A DNA stretch of 64,000 nucleotides from PVC group bacterium (GTDB taxonomy: Bacteria > Verrucomicrobiota > Kiritimatiellia > CAIKKV01 > CAITUY01). The notes below the pieces were generated by a model. The model saw nothing but the letters and a program-made list of their open reading frames with translations. It made no database searches and had not been told where the DNA came from. Position 1 is the stretch's first letter, and the number at the start of each line of letters is the position of its first letter. Position numbers and translations under genes: made by a program. Below, piece by piece: positions 3,001-11,790 of this stretch. The DNA lies in contig CAMDCX010000003.1 in the NCBI GenBank assembly GCA_945890715.1, forward strand, positions 1 to 64,000. The letters are read 5' to 3'.

Positions 3001-4815
3001 TTATCGGCTCCATTCGTTCCGATAGGGAATTTTGATGTCGTAGGTCTTACCCAGAGTCTTCAACTCGGTGAGAATGCCGGGTTGCTTCATGCGGTTGTGC
3101 TCGCCAATCAGGAAATAGGCTCGCTGCCAGGCCCACTGTGTCCGGATATCCGATGAGCCTTCCAGCGCCTTCGCCAGATCAATGTCAAAAACCATATCGC
3201 ACTGGATTTCAGCCGCCTGACCCGTCGCCTGAAAAACCAATTTTCCCGTGTTCCGGGGAACCCGCCCGAACAAGATCAACGGACGATCCATGTACAGGTT
3301 TGCCGTCAGCACCGGATAGGCCTCGCAATAGGTTTGGCCCGAGAACCTGAATCGCACATCCGACAAGACCGGCCGACTCACCTCGCGCGCCCGATTTTCA
3401 ATCACATCGGGAATATCCCACCGGCCCGTCTTCACCACAAAGGTGTCACCCCGGTTACGATAGCTCAACAGATCAAGCAGGTAGGCGTTGACCCCCGGAT
3501 AAGTTCCCACCGTAAAAACCGATACAGCCCCGCGGTTCACCTGACTGAATGCCTCAATAATCACCGAATGATCCGTCACTCCCGCCGTGGCCACGCCATC
3601 GCTCACCACCATTAAAATCACCGGCCGCCCCGACTGGCGGGGGGTCGCCAAAAGATCCTTCAGGGAATCAAAAATATCCGTGTTCCCCACCGATTCCATG
3701 CGACCGATAAAGTCCCGCGCTTGTTGCAGGGTATCCGGATTCACCGTGGCCCAGGTTTCGAAGCAGCGCGAGACAGAATCCCGGAATTCAACGACATTAA
3801 ACCGATCACCGGGTGCCAGCAGGTTAAGAGCCTTGAGCAGTCCCTCCCGGCAGAAACGAAGTTTCTGTTCGGTAATGCTTGCCGAACCATCCTGCACAAA
3901 CAAAAGATCCTTTCCCAGAACCGGCAATAGCTCCGTCGTCCTTCGCTTAATCTCAATCCTGCAGTAATCATAAAGGGGATCCATCGGGGTCCGGTAGAGA
4001 TACACCTCCGCCTTCAGATACTTCTCCAAAGCCTTGAGAATGGGAATGCGATCAGCATCCACCAGCTTACGCGGCTCCTCCCGAAGCGTGGTTTGCGGCG
4101 GCGGCACATCCCTCGCCGCACCAGAAAACCCCGCACTGGACGCGAGGTTTTTCCCCCAGGTGAACAGGGAGGGGTCATCAACCAGATAATAGGCGCCCGT
4201 CGAAGAAATCCCCCGCTCCAGAGACTCCCGACTCGCCGGGGCTGCAATATCCACCCCCTGTTTTTCGCGTGGCACCATCTGAATATACCGACGAGGCCGA
4301 CTGACGGCGGCATCATCCTTCACAATTGTCTGATTGATGCTCAAAATTTCCTGGCGCGGCTCCCACAGCAGGCGATCCACGGGAATCGGCTCTGCCAGTG
4401 TGCGTTGCTCCCCGATCAAGACCCCTGCCCCCACCTGCCGGGGCTCTACCGAGGATTCATCCAGAGATCGCCGAACCGTCGTCATCTCCGCACCAATTTC
4501 ACCGGCCACCGCCGTCCCCTTCGCGGCTTCCGGCTTGAACTTTGGCGGGCGCCGCTCCGACTCCGAGGTTTGTGCAACCACTTTGACGTCCTCTAACCGC
4601 AATGAAATCGGCTTCTCGCCTGATCGCCCCGGCTCGATCTTGTACGCGCTGATTCCGGGCAGGAACAAGATCAACAGCAGATGTAGCAGCACCGAAACTA
4701 CCACGGCCAGGCCATACCACATCACATTCCGCCGATGCAGCTGCCGGACAATCTCCACCGCACCCAACGGCTGGTTCTTACGGCGAAAACTCAGTTGTCG
4801 TGCAGAATAGTTCAT
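3001..4815 (-). CDS. TonB-anchored von Willebrand factor A protein
   Basis: A 604-residue protein, last gene of the exbB-exbD-TPR-VWA operon. It has a basic cytoplasmic N-terminus and one membrane segment at about 32-53. That segment contains SVLLH (S41, H45), the SxxxH pattern that TonB uses to contact ExbB. A long proline/charge-rich periplasmic linker follows, then a VWA domain at about 300-475. The metal-ion-dependent adhesion site is complete: DGSAS (D309, S311, S313), T379 in GNTD and D406 in VSDG. No TonB C-terminal domain is seen; about 130 beta-rich residues follow the VWA domain. I infer an ExbB/ExbD-driven transducer whose effector is a metal-dependent binding domain. The partner at the outer membrane is unknown. 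Confidence 0.8.
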   Translation of the reverse strand: MNYSARQLSFRRKNQPLGAVEIVRQLHRRNVMWYGLAVVVSVLLHLLLILFLPGISAYKIEPGRSGEKPISLRLEDVKVVAQTSESERRPPKFKPEAAKGTAVAGEIGAEMTTVRRSLDESSVEPRQVGAGVLIGEQRTLAEPIPVDRLLWEPRQEILSINQTIVKDDAAVSRPRRYIQMVPREKQGVDIAAPASRESLERGISSTGAYYLVDDPSLFTWGKNLASSAGFSGAARDVPPPQTTLREEPRKLVDADRIPILKALEKYLKAEVYLYRTPMDPLYDYCRIEIKRRTTELLPVLGKDLLFVQDGSASITEQKLRFCREGLLKALNLLAPGDRFNVVEFRDSVSRCFETWATVNPDTLQQARDFIGRMESVGNTDIFDSLKDLLATPRQSGRPVILMVVSDGVATAGVTDHSVIIEAFSQVNRGAVSVFTVGTYPGVNAYLLDLLSYRNRGDTFVVKTGRWDIPDVIENRAREVSRPVLSDVRFRFSGQTYCEAYPVLTANLYMDRPLILFGRVPRNTGKLVFQATGQAAEIQCDMVFDIDLAKALEGSSDIRTQWAWQRAYFLIGEHNRMKQPGILTELKTLGKTYDIKIPYRNEWSR

Positions 4816-4858
4816 AATCAGCCCAATCCAACAGATCGATCAGATCCTATGGATCACT

Positions 4859-7183
4859 TTATTGCTTCACTTTCTTCGCCCATTCGCTTTCCGGGTAGCG
4901 TTCCTGCAATTCCTTTTTAGCTTTTCTGGAATCTTCCTTGCGCCCCATGACATCAAACGACTGGGCGGCCTCATACAGGCACTCGGGAACCAGCACAGGA
5001 TCATCGAACAGCACGGCCACACTCAGAAAATGACGGGAGGCACCTGCCGGATCCCCCTGAGCCTTCAAAGCCCGACCAATCCCCGCATAGGCCTTCACAC
5101 GAATGGGCAGCAGGATATCGGAGGCTGCCAGTGTAGCCGCCTCCTCGAACGCCCGCTTCGCCTTGGCCGCATCCCCTGCCGCCAAAGCTAATTCGCCCAG
5201 TTTCAACCAGGCCTCGGCCATAGCCTGGCTCTTGAAATCGATTCCCACCACCCGCTCAAACGCCTGTCGGGCTTCCTCGTTCTTTCCCTGCCCCAGAAGC
5301 GCCTTACCCTTGAGACACCAGGCAATTTGACGCCAGTTCCCTGATGTTGCACGGGTTGCCAACCAATCGGCAACCAGCCCCGCCTCAACAAATTCACGTT
5401 GATTAATCTGGTAATCGGCAAGCCACTCCGCCAATTCAGGCGGGAACTTTTCCCGCATTGGCGTCGCCATCAATCCCTGTAACAATGCCGCCGCCTCACC
5501 GGACTTTCCGCCACGCCGCTGCAACACCAGCGCCAATCGAAATCTGGCGCGCTGAACCAGCTCGTCCGCAGGCGGGGGGACCGCCTTCAAGGCCGACCTG
5601 AAAGCCATCTCGGCTTCCTCCAACTTTCCGTTTTCTTCCAGAAGGACCCCATTCCAGAACCGGGCATCGGCCCCGTATTTCGTTACCGGAAAGCGGGTCA
5701 ACAAGTCGCGCCACGTTTCCAACGCCTGGTCGTCCCGGCGCAGAAAAGTCTCCACCGTGGCTTTCTGATAAAGCGAATCTTCGACAAACGAACAGTTCGG
5801 GTATTTCTCAACCAGTCGGGCATAGGCGGCTACCGCCTGCGTGTGCTTCTGCGCCTTGCCCAGGCACGATGCCTGGGCGAAAACCGCCTGCGCCGCCAGA
5901 TCGTGCGTTGGAAATTCGGAGGCCAACCGCCCGAACATCTCCGAGGCCTGCAAAAAATCGCCTTTTTTCTGCAGCCCATGAGCCAACCGGTACAGGGCAT
6001 CACCCGCCAGAGGAGACGCAGGATACTGCTCCACCAAAAGCCGGTAATTCTGAACGGCACCGTCCTCGTCCTTCATCGAGGCATAGGATTCCGCCAGAAG
6101 CCAATATACATCCCGCCGGATTGACTCGTTTGAGGTCAGTCCCTTGGCCTGGCTGATCGTCTCCTGAAACCGGCCCAACTTGAAAAACGACAGAGCTCGC
6201 TCATAGGCCGCACTACCCGCCATCGCCCCCTGGGGATACGCCTTCAAAAGCTCAGCATAAGTGACCACCGCCTCATCGTTCTTCAAAAGTTGCCGCTCGC
6301 AATTCCCCTTGAGATACAGCCACCCTTCCGTTCTGCCACCCTCACAGAGCTTAAGGGCATCGGAAAACCGCCCGGCATGATACAACGCCCAGGACTGCTG
6401 AAGCCGCGCCTCGGCAACCCGGCTGTCGGAAGGAACCTGCGACGCCAACTCTTCATAAGCACGGGCACTCTGTTCATACTCCTTCCGGCCAAAGTGATAA
6501 TCTCCCAATTGAAACCAGGCTTCGGCCCTCACCCGCGGGGAGGCAACGTTTGTAGCCGCCAACCGATAAAGCCCGGCGCTCCGGTCACCCCCGGCCTTGC
6601 GATCCAGACCGGCCAGAGCCAGGGCGGCATACGACACAAAGGGAGTGCCGGGATATTTTTTTATCACCGCCTCATACGCCTCAACGGCCTCAGCCACCTT
6701 TCCCTGCTTCTCAAGCGCGGCACCCAGCGTGTAACGGCAAGCAGAGGCAAGATCCGGCGGCGGGGAGGAAGCCAGCATAGCCACGAGTAGTTGCACCTGT
6801 TCCAGACCCTGACCCGCCTGCTCCAGGAACTCCGCACGGCGCAAGCCAGCGCGATAGTGGAATTCGCCGTTTGGATAATCGTCATAGACCCGATGATAGG
6901 CCGCTTCAGCCTCCTGGAGCCGACCCAGCGCCCGGTAGCTCTCGCCCATGCGGTAGTAAACAGCTTCGCTCTCGCCCTTTTTGTCAGGATTCTGAGCTAA
7001 AAAAGCCTGATATTCCTTCAACGCCGTATCCCACATCCCGCGCGCATAAAGGCCGTCGGCGAATTGAAGCTGTTCCGCTGCATCGAGGGCGAAACACGGT
7101 CGCGGAAATAACAGAACAGATCCGATCAATCCGATGACTATGACTGATCGGGCAGATCGAATGCTGGAACGAACGTGTTTCAC
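4859..7183 (-). CDS. Secreted tetratricopeptide-repeat protein
   Basis: A 774-residue protein with a cleavable-looking signal peptide (hydrophobic core at about 14-32, ending PCFA). The rest is almost entirely TPR units of the YbgF/BamD-like style (A..Y..... YP.s..a..A.y..g), about fifteen to eighteen by eye. It is presumably a periplasmic scaffold. It begins with GTG overlapping the exbD stop (GTGA), which implies translational coupling. By analogy with CpoB/YbgF beside the Tol system, it may bridge the ExbB/ExbD motor and the VWA protein. No lipobox was seen. The operon context is firm; the binding partners are inferred. Confidence 0.8.
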   Translation of the reverse strand: MKHVRSSIRSARSVIVIGLIGSVLLFPRPCFALDAAEQLQFADGLYARGMWDTALKEYQAFLAQNPDKKGESEAVYYRMGESYRALGRLQEAEAAYHRVYDDYPNGEFHYRAGLRRAEFLEQAGQGLEQVQLLVAMLASSPPPDLASACRYTLGAALEKQGKVAEAVEAYEAVIKKYPGTPFVSYAALALAGLDRKAGGDRSAGLYRLAATNVASPRVRAEAWFQLGDYHFGRKEYEQSARAYEELASQVPSDSRVAEARLQQSWALYHAGRFSDALKLCEGGRTEGWLYLKGNCERQLLKNDEAVVTYAELLKAYPQGAMAGSAAYERALSFFKLGRFQETISQAKGLTSNESIRRDVYWLLAESYASMKDEDGAVQNYRLLVEQYPASPLAGDALYRLAHGLQKKGDFLQASEMFGRLASEFPTHDLAAQAVFAQASCLGKAQKHTQAVAAYARLVEKYPNCSFVEDSLYQKATVETFLRRDDQALETWRDLLTRFPVTKYGADARFWNGVLLEENGKLEEAEMAFRSALKAVPPPADELVQRARFRLALVLQRRGGKSGEAAALLQGLMATPMREKFPPELAEWLADYQINQREFVEAGLVADWLATRATSGNWRQIAWCLKGKALLGQGKNEEARQAFERVVGIDFKSQAMAEAWLKLGELALAAGDAAKAKRAFEEAATLAASDILLPIRVKAYAGIGRALKAQGDPAGASRHFLSVAVLFDDPVLVPECLYEAAQSFDVMGRKEDSRKAKKELQERYPESEWAKKVKQ

Positions 7184-7608
7184 GGCCCGGCTTTCTTTTC
7201 CACCAACCCCGTGGCGAAGGACACATTCCAGATATCGGCCTGCCTGCAGAAATCAAGGACCTTGATCACATGCTCGTAGTCGGTCTGCTTATCCGCCCGA
7301 AGCAGAACCGGCTGACCGGGAAACAATTCAACCAGGCGCCTGAGTAGCGAAGCCAGCTCAGGATCGCTCAACGTGCGGCCATTCACAACCGTCGCCCCGT
7401 TTTTCATGATGTTCAGGATGATTTCACCAGGAAGGCGTTGCTCGATCTGAGCCGATGCCGCGGTCGGCAGCTTGACATCCAACTCGGCCTCCCACTGCGT
7501 GAAAATCTGACTCATGATCGAGTAACAGAGCAACACGAGCAAAAAATCCACCATCGGCGCGATCTGGAACGCGATGGGGTTGGGCTGGTGCCTGCCTCGA
7601 AAGTTCAT
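7180..7608 (-). CDS. exbD: ExbD/TolR-family biopolymer transport protein
   Basis: A 142-residue inner-membrane protein with a single N-terminal membrane segment. It contains the family acidic residue in IAPMVDFLLVLLCY, where the aspartate is needed for proton coupling, and a periplasmic domain with the usual hydrophobic tail region (PVLLRADKQTDYEHVIKVLD). It overlaps both neighbours by four bases (ATGA with exbB, GTGA with the TPR gene). It forms the proton-driven motor with ExbB. Calling it ExbD rather than TolR rests on the absence of tolA, tolB and pal here, so the symbol is family-level. Confidence 0.88.
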   Translation of the reverse strand: MNFRGRHQPNPIAFQIAPMVDFLLVLLCYSIMSQIFTQWEAELDVKLPTAASAQIEQRLPGEIILNIMKNGATVVNGRTLSDPELASLLRRLVELFPGQPVLLRADKQTDYEHVIKVLDFCRQADIWNVSFATGLVEKKAGP

Positions 7609-8348
7609 TTGCTCCTCTTGCTCAGAAGAATATTCATGACCTGGCCGGACGCCACCTCAAGCTCGGCAATCAACCGGGCCGCCCGGTTCCGGAAAAAGGC
7701 ATAGAACGCCATCGTCGGGATGCCGACAATCAACCCGGCGGCCGTGGCCACCAGCGCCTCACCCACGCCCGCCGCCAGCAACATGGGCTTGGCCTTTGTT
7801 AAATCCAGCGCCACCGCGTTAAAGGCGTGAATCATGCCAAACACCGTCCCCAAAAGCCCCACCATCGGAGACAAAACCGCAAGGTCGAAAAGATACTGGG
7901 TCTGACCCTGAATAATCAAAGCCTGCCGTCCGCCCTCTCCCTCAATGACATCCTTCAAGAGCGCCGGATCCGGCTTCTCATCAGATCGGGCATAATCAAT
8001 CGCCGAAACGGCAACCTCTGAAAAAGCGCAAGGCTTGTACCCGCAGGCGGATCGGGCATCAACCCACTCGCCCGTCTCAAGTTTGTCAAGAACGTCATCT
8101 CGAAGCGCAGGCGGAACCACCTGACTACGACGCAAAATAACGAAAAAGTATATCACCAGCGCCAGGCCGACTACCGACATCAGTCCAAGCACCACCATCA
8201 CCGCCCCCCCCCGGCTCACCATATCCAACAAAGGAACCTGTTGAGTGGCCAGAAGGTCATCCTTACCAGCCCCCTGTGAAAAGACGGCCGCAGACGATGC
8301 AAAAAACACAACGACAAGCATTGAGAAAACTTTTTTTATTTTGTTCAT
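7605..8348 (-). CDS. exbB: ExbB/TolQ/MotA-family proton channel protein
   Basis: A 247-residue protein and the first gene of the operon. An N-terminal signal-like segment (about 7-25) is followed by three membrane helices: about 48-72, then about 148-175 and 190-220 in the conserved ExbB block (LSPMVGLLGTVFGMIHAF and GEALVATAAGLIVGIP). It forms the pentameric proton channel that powers TonB-type transducers with ExbD. The extra N-terminal signal-like segment is common in ExbB of PVC and Bacteroidetes bacteria. It likely energises the VWA-bearing TonB-like protein encoded three genes downstream. Confidence 0.9.
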   Translation of the reverse strand: MNKIKKVFSMLVVVFFASSAAVFSQGAGKDDLLATQQVPLLDMVSRGGAVMVVLGLMSVVGLALVIYFFVILRRSQVVPPALRDDVLDKLETGEWVDARSACGYKPCAFSEVAVSAIDYARSDEKPDPALLKDVIEGEGGRQALIIQGQTQYLFDLAVLSPMVGLLGTVFGMIHAFNAVALDLTKAKPMLLAAGVGEALVATAAGLIVGIPTMAFYAFFRNRAARLIAELEVASGQVMNILLSKRSK

Positions 8349-8402: not shown

Positions 8403-9791
8403 TCACTCCACCGGGTACTTAATCCCCATGAGTTTCGTCACAGCCTTGCAATGGGCGGACCACTCCTCGTTATGCCATTCCCGACCTGCCTTGATTCGCT
8501 CCCCATACCACCCAAAGTCAAGCCCGTTGGGCGCACCCCAATGCGTTTTCTTCAACACCGACTCGACCGCATCCATCGTCTCCAATTCGTCCAAATTGGC
8601 CTTGATATAGTTGTAGGCATCCCGGAACGGCATGCCCCGCCCCACCAACTCCAGCGCGCGATCAGTGGCAAAAACGCCGGGCGAAAAACTTTTGAGCAAC
8701 GCCCCGGGATTGACCTCCATTCGTTCCGTCATCTGCGCCATGCTTCGCAGACAGGATCGGGTTGTGGCAACACCCTCCATGAAGGGACCCTTGGTTTCCT
8801 GAAGGTCGCGGTTATACCCACTGGGCAGGCTTCGGGCAATGTCCATCACGGCCAGTTCGCAGGCCATCACTCGAGCCACACGAGCCCGAACCAACTCCAC
8901 CACATCGGGATTATTCTTCTGCGGCATGATACTGCTTCCCGTGCCGTATTCCGCCGGCAAAGTGAAATATCCGAATTCGGGCATGGTGAACAGCATCAGA
9001 TCCTGCGCCAGGCGGGACAGCGAAAGCATCACCTGCGTCATCGCCTGAAGAATCAGCGTCTCGATCTTTCCGCGGGCATTGTTGGCATACAAGACATTGT
9101 GAACCGGGCGACTAAACCCGAGTAGGCGCGCGGTGAGCACCCGGTCAATCGGAAGCGGGACGCCATAACTGGCCGCCGAACCAAGCGGACACTGGTCATT
9201 CAAGTCATACACCGCCATCAGCAAAGCGACATCGTCAAGCAGACTCTCCGCATGCGCCGACGCCCATAACCCCACCGAACTGGGCATGGCTGGTTGCATA
9301 TGCGTTCGCCCGACCATGGGAACCGTCTCGTGCCGCTTGGCAAATCCCACCAGAACGGCCGCTAGCGCCAGAGTTTCAGATACCGCTCCAATTAACTCTT
9401 CCCGGGCAAATAAACGAAGATCCACCGCAACCTGGTCGTTCCGACTACGACCCGTGTGAATCTTTTTGCCCAAATCTCCCAGCTTCGCAGTGAGAATCCG
9501 CTCCACGGCCAAGTGAACATCCTGATCGTCCAGGGAAATCGAAAACTGCCCCGCTGCCGCGCGCTGCATGATGGATCCCAATTCCCGAATCACAGCCTTG
9601 CACTCGGCTCCGGTGATCACCTTCGGACGGATTGGCATTCGCGAAAGCATGGTGACATGGGCGGCCGATCCAATACAGTCAGCTTGAACCAACGCCAAGT
9701 CAAGTTGCAGGTCACTTCCGGCGGTAAAATCAAGAACAGAGGGATCAATTGAGCCCACCGTAGTTTTGCGTGTCATCTTACGAGATGTCAT
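8403..9791 (-). CDS. argH: Argininosuccinate lyase
   Basis: A 462-residue cytoplasmic enzyme that splits argininosuccinate into arginine and fumarate, the last step of arginine synthesis. The fumarase-superfamily signature GSSIMPQKNNPD is present and carries the mobile serine loop. The conserved TGRSRNDQ-like block (HTGRSRNDQVAVD) and the MVGRTHMQPAMPSS block, with its catalytic histidine, are also seen. The length is normal. A possible second start is Met6. No other arg genes are adjacent, but speA, which consumes arginine, lies 5 kb away on the same strand. The upstream neighbours are two uncharacterised envelope proteins. Confidence 0.96.
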   Translation of the reverse strand: MTSRKMTRKTTVGSIDPSVLDFTAGSDLQLDLALVQADCIGSAAHVTMLSRMPIRPKVITGAECKAVIRELGSIMQRAAAGQFSISLDDQDVHLAVERILTAKLGDLGKKIHTGRSRNDQVAVDLRLFAREELIGAVSETLALAAVLVGFAKRHETVPMVGRTHMQPAMPSSVGLWASAHAESLLDDVALLMAVYDLNDQCPLGSAASYGVPLPIDRVLTARLLGFSRPVHNVLYANNARGKIETLILQAMTQVMLSLSRLAQDLMLFTMPEFGYFTLPAEYGTGSSIMPQKNNPDVVELVRARVARVMACELAVMDIARSLPSGYNRDLQETKGPFMEGVATTRSCLRSMAQMTERMEVNPGALLKSFSPGVFATDRALELVGRGMPFRDAYNYIKANLDELETMDAVESVLKKTHWGAPNGLDFGWYGERIKAGREWHNEEWSAHCKAVTKLMGIKYPVE

Positions 9792-9820
9792 GGAATCTTT
9801 TCCTCTGCTGACCCGGATTT

Positions 9821-11092
9821 TCAGGGCTTCTGGTATCGTTTCTCAGCGTCGTCAATATAGGACTCTATTTTACTTTTTTCAAGCTCGGGAACCAACCCCT
9901 CCCCGGGCCTCGGATTCTGATCTCGTCGCTTCCCGTCCATATCCCGCTCCACTTCATCAAGATAGGCTTCGCGGGAACGGGTCAGGGCTTCCAACTGTTT
10001 CAGGGCGGATTCAGCCCGGCTTAATCGCCATTTCAAGATCGGGGTCCAGGCTCCAGAAACCACTCCCTCGTAAAAACGGCCATACAAATTGGCAATCGCC
10101 CCCAGTTCCGGAGCCTTTCCCATCGTGACCATCTGAAGCCGCTCCATCTTAAGGGCTGCCCCGTTCGCGACAGCAACGGGCCATTTCTTCCGCGCCTCCA
10201 TGATTTCACGGGGTTGGAGGCACACTGGTTCCGGGGTATTGAATTCCATGGGCAACTCCGCCTTCACCTGATCAATCAGGGCTAGAGAAAGCCCGCCAAA
10301 TTCCTGAATGGCGAGACCCTGCCGCTGCCGCCACTCCTTCCACTGGACTTCCATCCCTGCCACGGACTCCATCTGAACGCCCGCCACGGCAAGCCATTCC
10401 GGAGATATCGCCTCCTGTCGCACCACTCGCTCCAGAACCCGGTCGAGGGCCTCGGGAACAGAATTGATCCACGCCACCAGAAGCCCGCACAGCGCCTGCC
10501 GACTATGCCACCCCTCGGGAAGGTGTTTCCACCCCATCACGGCCGAGGCAGGGGTTGTCCCCAAGTCCACTCCGGAAACCTTCAGGATTTTTCGATTCAT
10601 GGCCACTTGTTCCTTGTTCAGATTCCGGGCAAGTCCCACGCTCAACCACCGGGGAATCTCAGGAATAACAGCGGGCAACTCCGCCTCACGACGGCGACGA
10701 TCCACAATTCCCGTCAGAATCAACCGGATCAACCCTTCCTGAATCAGGTCGTAATCCACTGTGCCCGTCCGGGACAGGATAAGGTCGCGCTTCAACACCT
10801 CTCCGTTTCGTGAGCAGGATACGGATACGGGTCCGGACTCCTCCAGGACAATTTCGATTACGTTCCGACGCTCCGAAGAAATGGGCATTCCCAGAAACCG
10901 CTCGAACTGAAGGGTCATGTCTTCAGCCCAGCGAGTATAATTGGTATTTTCGAGAGTATCTGATCCCACCACCCGGTAGCGGCCTGAGGCACTCAGGGTT
11001 ACAACCGGAACGGAAAATGCAGAAGGCACCCATAAAAGCAGGAGGCAGGCGGTGAACCATTGACTATTCAGCATCGGGAATTGAAAACTCAC
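9821..11092 (-). CDS. Secreted protein of unknown function
   Basis: A 423-residue protein that I do not recognise. It has a signal peptide (about 8-28, cleavage near AFS) and a charged C-terminus likely to form a helical coiled coil (about 365-420). A middle section resembles the layout of MA-like gluzincin peptidases (a conserved IPRWLSVGLARNL after a helical block), but no HExxH zinc motif exists. If related, it is therefore an inactive or structural form. The GTG start overlaps the stop of the upstream zinc-ribbon gene (GTGA); an alternative ATG is at 11074. The coupling suggests the two proteins work together at the membrane. Confidence 0.6.
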   Translation of the reverse strand: MSFQFPMLNSQWFTACLLLLWVPSAFSVPVVTLSASGRYRVVGSDTLENTNYTRWAEDMTLQFERFLGMPISSERRNVIEIVLEESGPVSVSCSRNGEVLKRDLILSRTGTVDYDLIQEGLIRLILTGIVDRRRREAELPAVIPEIPRWLSVGLARNLNKEQVAMNRKILKVSGVDLGTTPASAVMGWKHLPEGWHSRQALCGLLVAWINSVPEALDRVLERVVRQEAISPEWLAVAGVQMESVAGMEVQWKEWRQRQGLAIQEFGGLSLALIDQVKAELPMEFNTPEPVCLQPREIMEARKKWPVAVANGAALKMERLQMVTMGKAPELGAIANLYGRFYEGVVSGAWTPILKWRLSRAESALKQLEALTRSREAYLDEVERDMDGKRRDQNPRPGEGLVPELEKSKIESYIDDAEKRYQKP

Positions 11093-11790
11093 GGAGCCAG
11101 CACCAGGGTGACCTTGGTGTCCTCGATCGCAACATTCTTCAGGAATGAAACCACTCGCTTTTCTCCGGTGATATCTGAAAACAAAGACCCAAAATAATCG
11201 ATCACAACATTTTTCGAGGATCCAGGCAGCGGAAGATGTCCGACTCGAGCCCGCTCAATCATCAAGACCCCGGCTTGAAATCCCGCCCGCATGTCCATGG
11301 TAACGGGAATCTTCACTTTAGCCAACCAGGCGATGTTCGTGGTCGGCACCCAGTCAAATCCTGCATAAAGGTCAAACATGCCCGTCTTGAGGTCAATGAT
11401 CAATTTCCCGGCCTTTCGGGACTTGGCCCGTTCCGTCAGAAATCCATTCAACTCCGCTTCCGTCAGGTCGATTTTGATTTCACGATTGTAGGACAACGCG
11501 GTTCGGGCCGCCTTTGCCTTGATCGGGATCTGGACCGAACCCGCGGCCTCGAAAAAGACAGGAGGTGCTTTGACCGGCCAGAGAATCGCCCCCGCCAATC
11601 CACCCACACTCAGGATCAGCACTCCCATCAACAAAACCCGGATCCATTTCCCATAATCAACTTCCCGCCGGGCATTCAAATCCGTCATGGATGTATCCTG
11701 CAGATTAAGCTTCTGTCCGCACGATGAGCAAAACACACGTCCCAGTTCATTTTGAAAACCACACTTTGAACACTCGATGCGAATAGCCAT
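11089..11790 (-). CDS. Zinc-ribbon single-pass membrane protein
   Basis: A 233-residue protein. The N-terminal zinc ribbon carries two CxxC pairs (CSKCGFQN and CSSCGQK, residues about 8-28). A linker and one membrane helix (about 50-70) follow, then a soluble domain of about 150 residues, presumably outside the cytoplasm, with alternating hydrophobic beta-strand patterns. I recognise no family for the distal domain. The gene is translationally coupled to the downstream secreted protein gene. The small cytoplasmic ribbon facing inward with a distal beta domain suggests a structural or sensory envelope role, but nothing shows this directly. Confidence 0.6.
   Translation of the reverse strand: MAIRIECSKCGFQNELGRVFCSSCGQKLNLQDTSMTDLNARREVDYGKWIRVLLMGVLILSVGGLAGAILWPVKAPPVFFEAAGSVQIPIKAKAARTALSYNREIKIDLTEAELNGFLTERAKSRKAGKLIIDLKTGMFDLYAGFDWVPTTNIAWLAKVKIPVTMDMRAGFQAGVLMIERARVGHLPLPGSSKNVVIDYFGSLFSDITGEKRVVSFLKNVAIEDTKVTLVLAP

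Follow-up and report, generated by a model that had tools for sequence, protein, structure and literature searches.

What does a proton-driven motor of the ExbB-ExbD kind act on when the protein encoded beside it carries a TonB-like anchor but ends in a von Willebrand A (VWA) domain? This question is raised by positions 3001-8348 of the window (the whole stretch of 64,000 nucleotides analysed here), where four adjacent genes lie on the minus strand, as do all features located below within the window, in the order ExbB-ExbD-TPR-VWA. Among the systems that carry proton-motive force across the periplasm, Ton and Tol are understood best: both are proton-driven, with a Ser/His helix that docks on ExbB and an ExbD dimer that serves as the rotor. 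The initial annotation had proposed for this locus an envelope machine distinct from both, with a motor pulling on a metal-dependent adhesion domain.

The operon and its anchored VWA protein

The coordinates agree with the earlier description of four genes that overlap or nearly touch: the ExbB and ExbD genes share 4 nt, as do the ExbD and TPR genes, and a gap of 43 nt separates TPR from VWA. Genes were assigned by Pfam and NCBIfam profile searches. The first (7605..8348) encodes an ExbB/TolQ-type proton-channel protein of 247 aa (PF01618, MotA_ExbB, 8.5e-25) with a signal-like extension at its N terminus, and the second (7180..7608) an ExbD/TolR-type protein of 142 aa (PF02472, 8e-20), the only ExbD in the operon. 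The ExbB motifs LLGTVFG and GEALVATAAGL (T168, E197, T202) are kept, and the alignment to TolQ/ExbB structures runs through GTVxG and EALxATAxGL; D21, the proton-carrying Asp of ExbD, is invariant in 16 orthologues and lines up with the Asp that lies in the membrane segment (PFIDVML) in ExbD structures. By homology and by the residues of the proton path, the pair classifies, at the level of sequence, with the ExbB-ExbD/TolQ-TolR motors of the 5:2 type. The third gene (4859..7183) encodes a 774-aa TPR protein (TPR_6, 2e-51) with YbgF/CpoB- and BamD-like repeats (the TIGR02795 YbgF model matches at 5e-60 over 10 stretches); it has a Sec signal peptide, no lipobox was seen in it, and it is presumably soluble in the periplasm.

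Upstream of the operon, on the same strand, positions 8403-11790 hold argH, a 423-aa protein and a zinc-ribbon membrane protein. The 423-aa protein is conserved and secreted-looking, with no Pfam match, and in several families argH adjoins the operon at most of the linked loci. A role in anti-phage defence was considered and rejected, as none of the four operon proteins has a meaningful PADLOC match.

The last gene (3001..4815) encodes the 604-aa VWA protein. Homologues were gathered from the family and the phylum and their neighbourhoods fetched; 66 were aligned, at identities down to ~21%. As the TonB-like reading had it, an SxxxH motif lies in the sole membrane helix (residues ~32-56 by hydropathy; 4648..4722), where the window protein carries the full TonB-type SHLS pattern (S-x3-H-x6-L-x3-S) as S41-VLL-H45-LLLILF-L52-PGI-S56. 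Position 41 is Ser in 63/66 homologues and Thr in 3, and position 45 is His in 64/66 and Tyr in 2, so that the pair is retained nearly as well as the five residues of the metal site (MIDAS) of the VWA domain, which are kept in 66/66. The window protein also has the L and final S of the SHLS pattern, which are not maintained across the 66. In a 16-sequence alignment of divergent members, M1, S41 and H45 are the only invariant residues N-terminal of the VWA domain, and the Ser/His pair is kept also in homologues unlinked to ExbB/ExbD; as far as the alignments go, conservation of the motif exceeds chance. Two VWA homologues from related genomes of one family (L138, L155) have Thr and Tyr in place of the helix Ser and His.

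A possible D-box-like strand, P69-ISLRLED-V77 (4585..4611), lies 3' of the helix. The relaxed pattern behind it, chosen post hoc, occurs in 39/66 homologues where shuffled sequences would give 9.9, and the strict Loll D-box pattern was not enriched (4/66 against 2.7 expected). The protein has one transmembrane helix, and net positive charge is greater on its N side in 41/66 homologues and less in 16, a bias that favours an N-in orientation with the VWA domain in the periplasm rather than the cytoplasm. Some 240 residues of linker separate the helix from the VWA domain. An AlphaFold2 single-chain model of the protein was unusable (mean pLDDT 32).

The VWA domain itself (residues 303-463; 3427..3909; VWA_3, 7.5e-14) has a complete MIDAS made up of D309-G-S311-A-S313, T379 and D406. 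No match to a TonB_C, TonB_2 or TolA C-terminal domain was found in the protein with Pfam, which bears out the claim that a VWA domain with an intact metal site stands where TonB has its C-terminal domain. Profile matches to ITIH1 (6fpy; 297-543, 5e-18), ITIH4 (9c4f; 296-497) and TIGR03788 (300-566; 96.5 bits against a cut-off of 552) run into the C-terminal region past the VWA domain (3001..3426), the first part of which is ITIH/VIT-VWA-like. What the window protein has in common with these proteins is the VWA domain, the adjoining C-terminal region and the MIDAS; no VIT domain was found in it, and it carries a membrane anchor and linker instead. E. coli YfbK and the Bat proteins are likewise envelope VWA proteins, for which no SxxxH anchor or motor partnership is known.

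Gene order and co-occurrence in related genomes

The complete operon was found at 23 loci in the class, and the surveyed gene order held throughout: each has exactly one ExbD, and the TPR gene lies directly 3' of ExbD in 23/23, as it does in nearly all split loci. At one locus counted as linked (L105) the TPR frame is open far upstream, so that the gene seems to start before ExbD. Among the nine genomes of the window's own family, the operon is intact in seven, split over two contigs in one and without an orthologue in one (85% complete). Judging by the published Tichowtungia case and by neighbouring genomes, the class is probably Kiritimatiellia-like, within the PVC group. In the tree, the linked loci fall within a single part of it. 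Many other class members carry the VWA gene by itself, as does every genome sampled from other classes, with one possible exception (L153), where ExbB and ExbD lie ~9 kb from the VWA gene on the opposite strand. The unlinked VWA genes of one clade (L110, L114, L115 and others) occupy a fixed place beside genes that, named by sequence appearance, are rho-, coaE- and type IV pilus-like.

Most VWA homologues, then, are not linked to ExbB/ExbD. Had they routinely lacked the motor altogether, a dedicated transducer would be hard to maintain; the objection has substance at the level of the locus, where the genes are often apart, but not genome-wide, where the motor has its genes at another site. With a model of the operon-type ExbD (A2), a clear orthologue was identified in 46/47 genomes tested, ExbB adjoined ExbD in 30/30 ExbD loci fetched, and the TPR gene came next in most. 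Across 388 genomes of the phylum, an orthologous ExbD accompanies the VWA protein in 135/139 cases and is present in 60/249 genomes that lack that protein; the four VWA-positive genomes without the ExbD are assemblies whose completeness does not exceed 88%. Fisher's p for this co-occurrence, ~2e-50, is uncorrected for relatedness and is of descriptive use only. Because an orthologous ExbB-ExbD-TPR trio is found elsewhere in the same genomes, we rejected the reading of unlinked VWA genes as motor-free.

Exchanged heads, other motors and published relatives

Seven genomes from two families without the VWA type (f45: G016, G050, G062, G080, G159 and G273; f53: G086) encode, directly 3' of ExbB-ExbD-TPR, an SxxxH-anchored protein of ~340 aa. 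The six f45 proteins end in an OmpA peptidoglycan-binding domain (Pfam), and the f53 protein aligns with them over nearly its whole length. When an anchor-linker profile built from the VWA proteins was searched over 1408 neighbourhood proteins, the VWA family ranked first and the six f45 OmpA fusions next (E 3e-8 to 2e-4), the remainder being marginal; the f53 protein, at its own locus, matched at E 5e-8. Since a homologous SxxxH anchor occupies the same slot and ends in OmpA in one case and in VWA in the other, the anchor is shared and the head exchanged. The OmpA head on this anchor gives the best hint of what the machine acts on: by analogy, the wall, or a protein of the wall/outer membrane in the periplasm, would be the most likely target. 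Sixty genomes have the ExbD orthologue and no VWA-type match, and the OmpA head was seen in only some of them; the trio can therefore work with other or unseen partners. At two loci (L223, L245) the genes that come after it encode a small protein that looks secreted and a trypsin-PDZ protease, and no SxxxH transducer lies close by; at three loci in other classes (L234, L236, L248) they encode proteins that, by eye, appear to be FHA-domain and FtsH-like.

The window genome encodes other ExbB/ExbD pairs besides that of the operon, as well as TonB_2 proteins and TonB-dependent receptors. Its second motor operon (L054:10542-17567; G000:C4) has two TPR genes, one gene for ExbB, two for ExbD and one for an SxxxH protein; the C-terminal part of this protein matches squalene-hopene-cyclase-like repeats, and its head would be an alpha/alpha-toroid. 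In two relatives, SxxxH-VWA proteins of 434-465 aa are encoded after TPR, ExbB and two ExbD (L060:6316-7713, L061:6485-7789). With E values of 1e-20 or lower, this family is matched in 38/97 class genomes, the weaker of these matches being partial, and it is full-length or nearly so in ~20/97; profile comparison with the window's VWA family aligns the VWA region only. Several further arrangements were observed: a duplicated pair of SxxxH squalene-hopene-cyclase-like proteins (L056:8761-11817); a 1269-aa membrane protein after TPR-ExbB-ExbD, with SILIH in a helix and weak matches to squalene cyclase and complement TED (L064:9346-13155); and, at L058, L062 and L063, TPR-containing proteins of ~2100-2400 aa, encoded upstream of ExbB-ExbD-ExbD and of a short TM protein whose helix contains a His.

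The core idea of an SHLS-anchored vWA protein working with TPR and TolQ/TolR proteins is already published, and the window type is a variant of it, not a plain member. The text of that article describes vWA proteins with an SHLS helix in PVC bacteria, with a domain II of ~100 residues and a disordered linker, whose genes have TPR, tolQ and paired tolR genes as neighbours; its AF3 models put the SHLS helix at the TonB/TolA site, and a transducer driven by proton-motive force is proposed (Williams-Jones et al. 2025, PMC12204202). The window type shares the single TM helix, the Ser/His motif, the disordered linker, the vWA head and the adjacent motor and TPR genes. Whereas the published proteins have a domain II of ~100 residues and go with two tolR genes, the window type has one ExbD at each of its 23 linked loci, a linker of ~240 residues, a TPR gene placed after ExbD and an ITIH-like VWA domain. 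The published description fits the L060/L061 family better than that of the window. The window type may already appear in Fig. 4a of the article (PMC12204202), whose text makes no mention of a toroid-headed transducer and speaks of OmpA only in other contexts.

The proposed machine and its alternatives

We consider it likely that the operon encodes a proton-powered transducer with a dedicated VWA protein, a TPR partner, a probable wall-linked target in the periplasm and a Tol-like task; the content and order of the genes, the conserved motifs, the co-occurrence and the head swap are shown by the sequences, whereas docking on the motor, the transmission of force, the partnership with TPR, the target and the task are all inferred. 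An ExbB pentamer and a homodimer of the single ExbD would form a motor of the 5:2 type, with the VWA protein as its dedicated force transducer. The helix of the latter would dock outside the pentamer through Ser41 and His45, like TonB and TolA, and the strand after it may engage the periplasmic ExbD dimer. The linker would span the periplasmic space, and the ITIH-like head would bind its target, presumably via the MIDAS metal, with the periplasmic TPR protein as a dedicated partner acting as scaffold or adaptor. Such a machine would probably perform a Tol-like envelope task, which, by analogy with the OmpA head, may be related to the wall. The combination first proposed, a motor driven by proton-motive force with a TonB-like anchored VWA protein and a TPR partner, is well supported by the conservation of the Ser/His pair, the co-occurrence with the trio and the OmpA-headed homologue in the same slot.

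The initial annotation also set this machine apart from Ton and Tol, and the comparison upholds that distinction. Ton shares with it the N-terminal SxxxH helix, the ExbB/ExbD motor and a periplasmic linker and head; the window protein, however, has no TonB C-terminal domain, and the genome possesses its TonB_2 proteins and receptors separately. Tol-Pal shares the motor, the anchor and a CpoB-like TPR protein encoded together with them, but the window protein has no TolA domain, and TolB_N, for which no match was found in the window genome or in the sampled genomes of its order, clears the cut-off in just 4/97 class genomes.

This near absence of TolB_N also bears on a more specific form of the explanation, possible though in our judgement less likely than not, in which the trio is equivalent to TolQ-TolR-CpoB, with the VWA or OmpA protein standing in for TolA, and for functions of Pal and TolB, in constriction of the outer membrane. 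The YbgF/CpoB-like repeats of the TPR protein, the resemblance of the OmpA-headed anchor to TolA and Pal in one chain and the conservation of the trio over much of the phylum are consistent with it, while the other ExbB/ExbD pairs in the same genome count against it.

Metal-dependent adhesion, as originally suggested, is less well supported: it was read from the MIDAS, and the OmpA swap suggests instead that the target is periplasmic or linked to the wall. A machine for surface adhesion or gliding, with the motor exposing or pulling on a VWA adhesin that extends to the outer membrane or beyond, is therefore unlikely in our view, even though the MIDAS is kept in 66/66 homologues, the nearest solved relatives of the head are the VWA domains of ITIH heavy chains, extracellular matrix-binding proteins, and a gliding role was suggested for the published vWA transducers, their function being left open (Williams-Jones et al. 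2025, PMC12204202). The VWA protein has its anchor in the inner membrane, no conserved outer-membrane or surface-export partner was seen beside its gene, and a peptidoglycan-binding head can fill the equivalent slot; the VWA domain, possible as a surface adhesin, probably works instead on the wall within the periplasm or at the outer-membrane interface.

That the protein is instead a motor-independent, inner-membrane-anchored periplasmic VWA protein of the YfbK/Bat kind, with its linkage to ExbB/ExbD incidental, is very improbable: most homologues are indeed unlinked and Bat operons likewise pair VWA and TPR proteins, but unlinked homologues keep the SxxxH pair, the specific trio accompanies the protein in 135/139 genomes, the OmpA swap retains the anchor, and the BatC match is weak (38 bits against a cut-off of 175).

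For the proton-powered transducer favoured here, a wider reading is tentative and, to us, a little short of probable: a phylum-wide ExbB-ExbD-TPR machine, driven by proton-motive force, would use exchangeable heads (ITIH-like VWA or OmpA) on a shared anchor to do a Tol-like job without TolB, with further ExbB-ExbD-ExbD systems using other VWA or toroid heads. What is new here is the comparison of Ser/His with MIDAS conservation over 66 homologues, the co-occurrence of unlinked VWA genes with the trio, and the OmpA head swap. If the proposal is true, proton motors would be modular, keeping the residues that bind the motor while metal-site VWA and wall-binding heads are swapped, and the analysis names a testable set of genes, a target compartment and a pair of residues in bacteria seemingly without canonical Tol-Pal.
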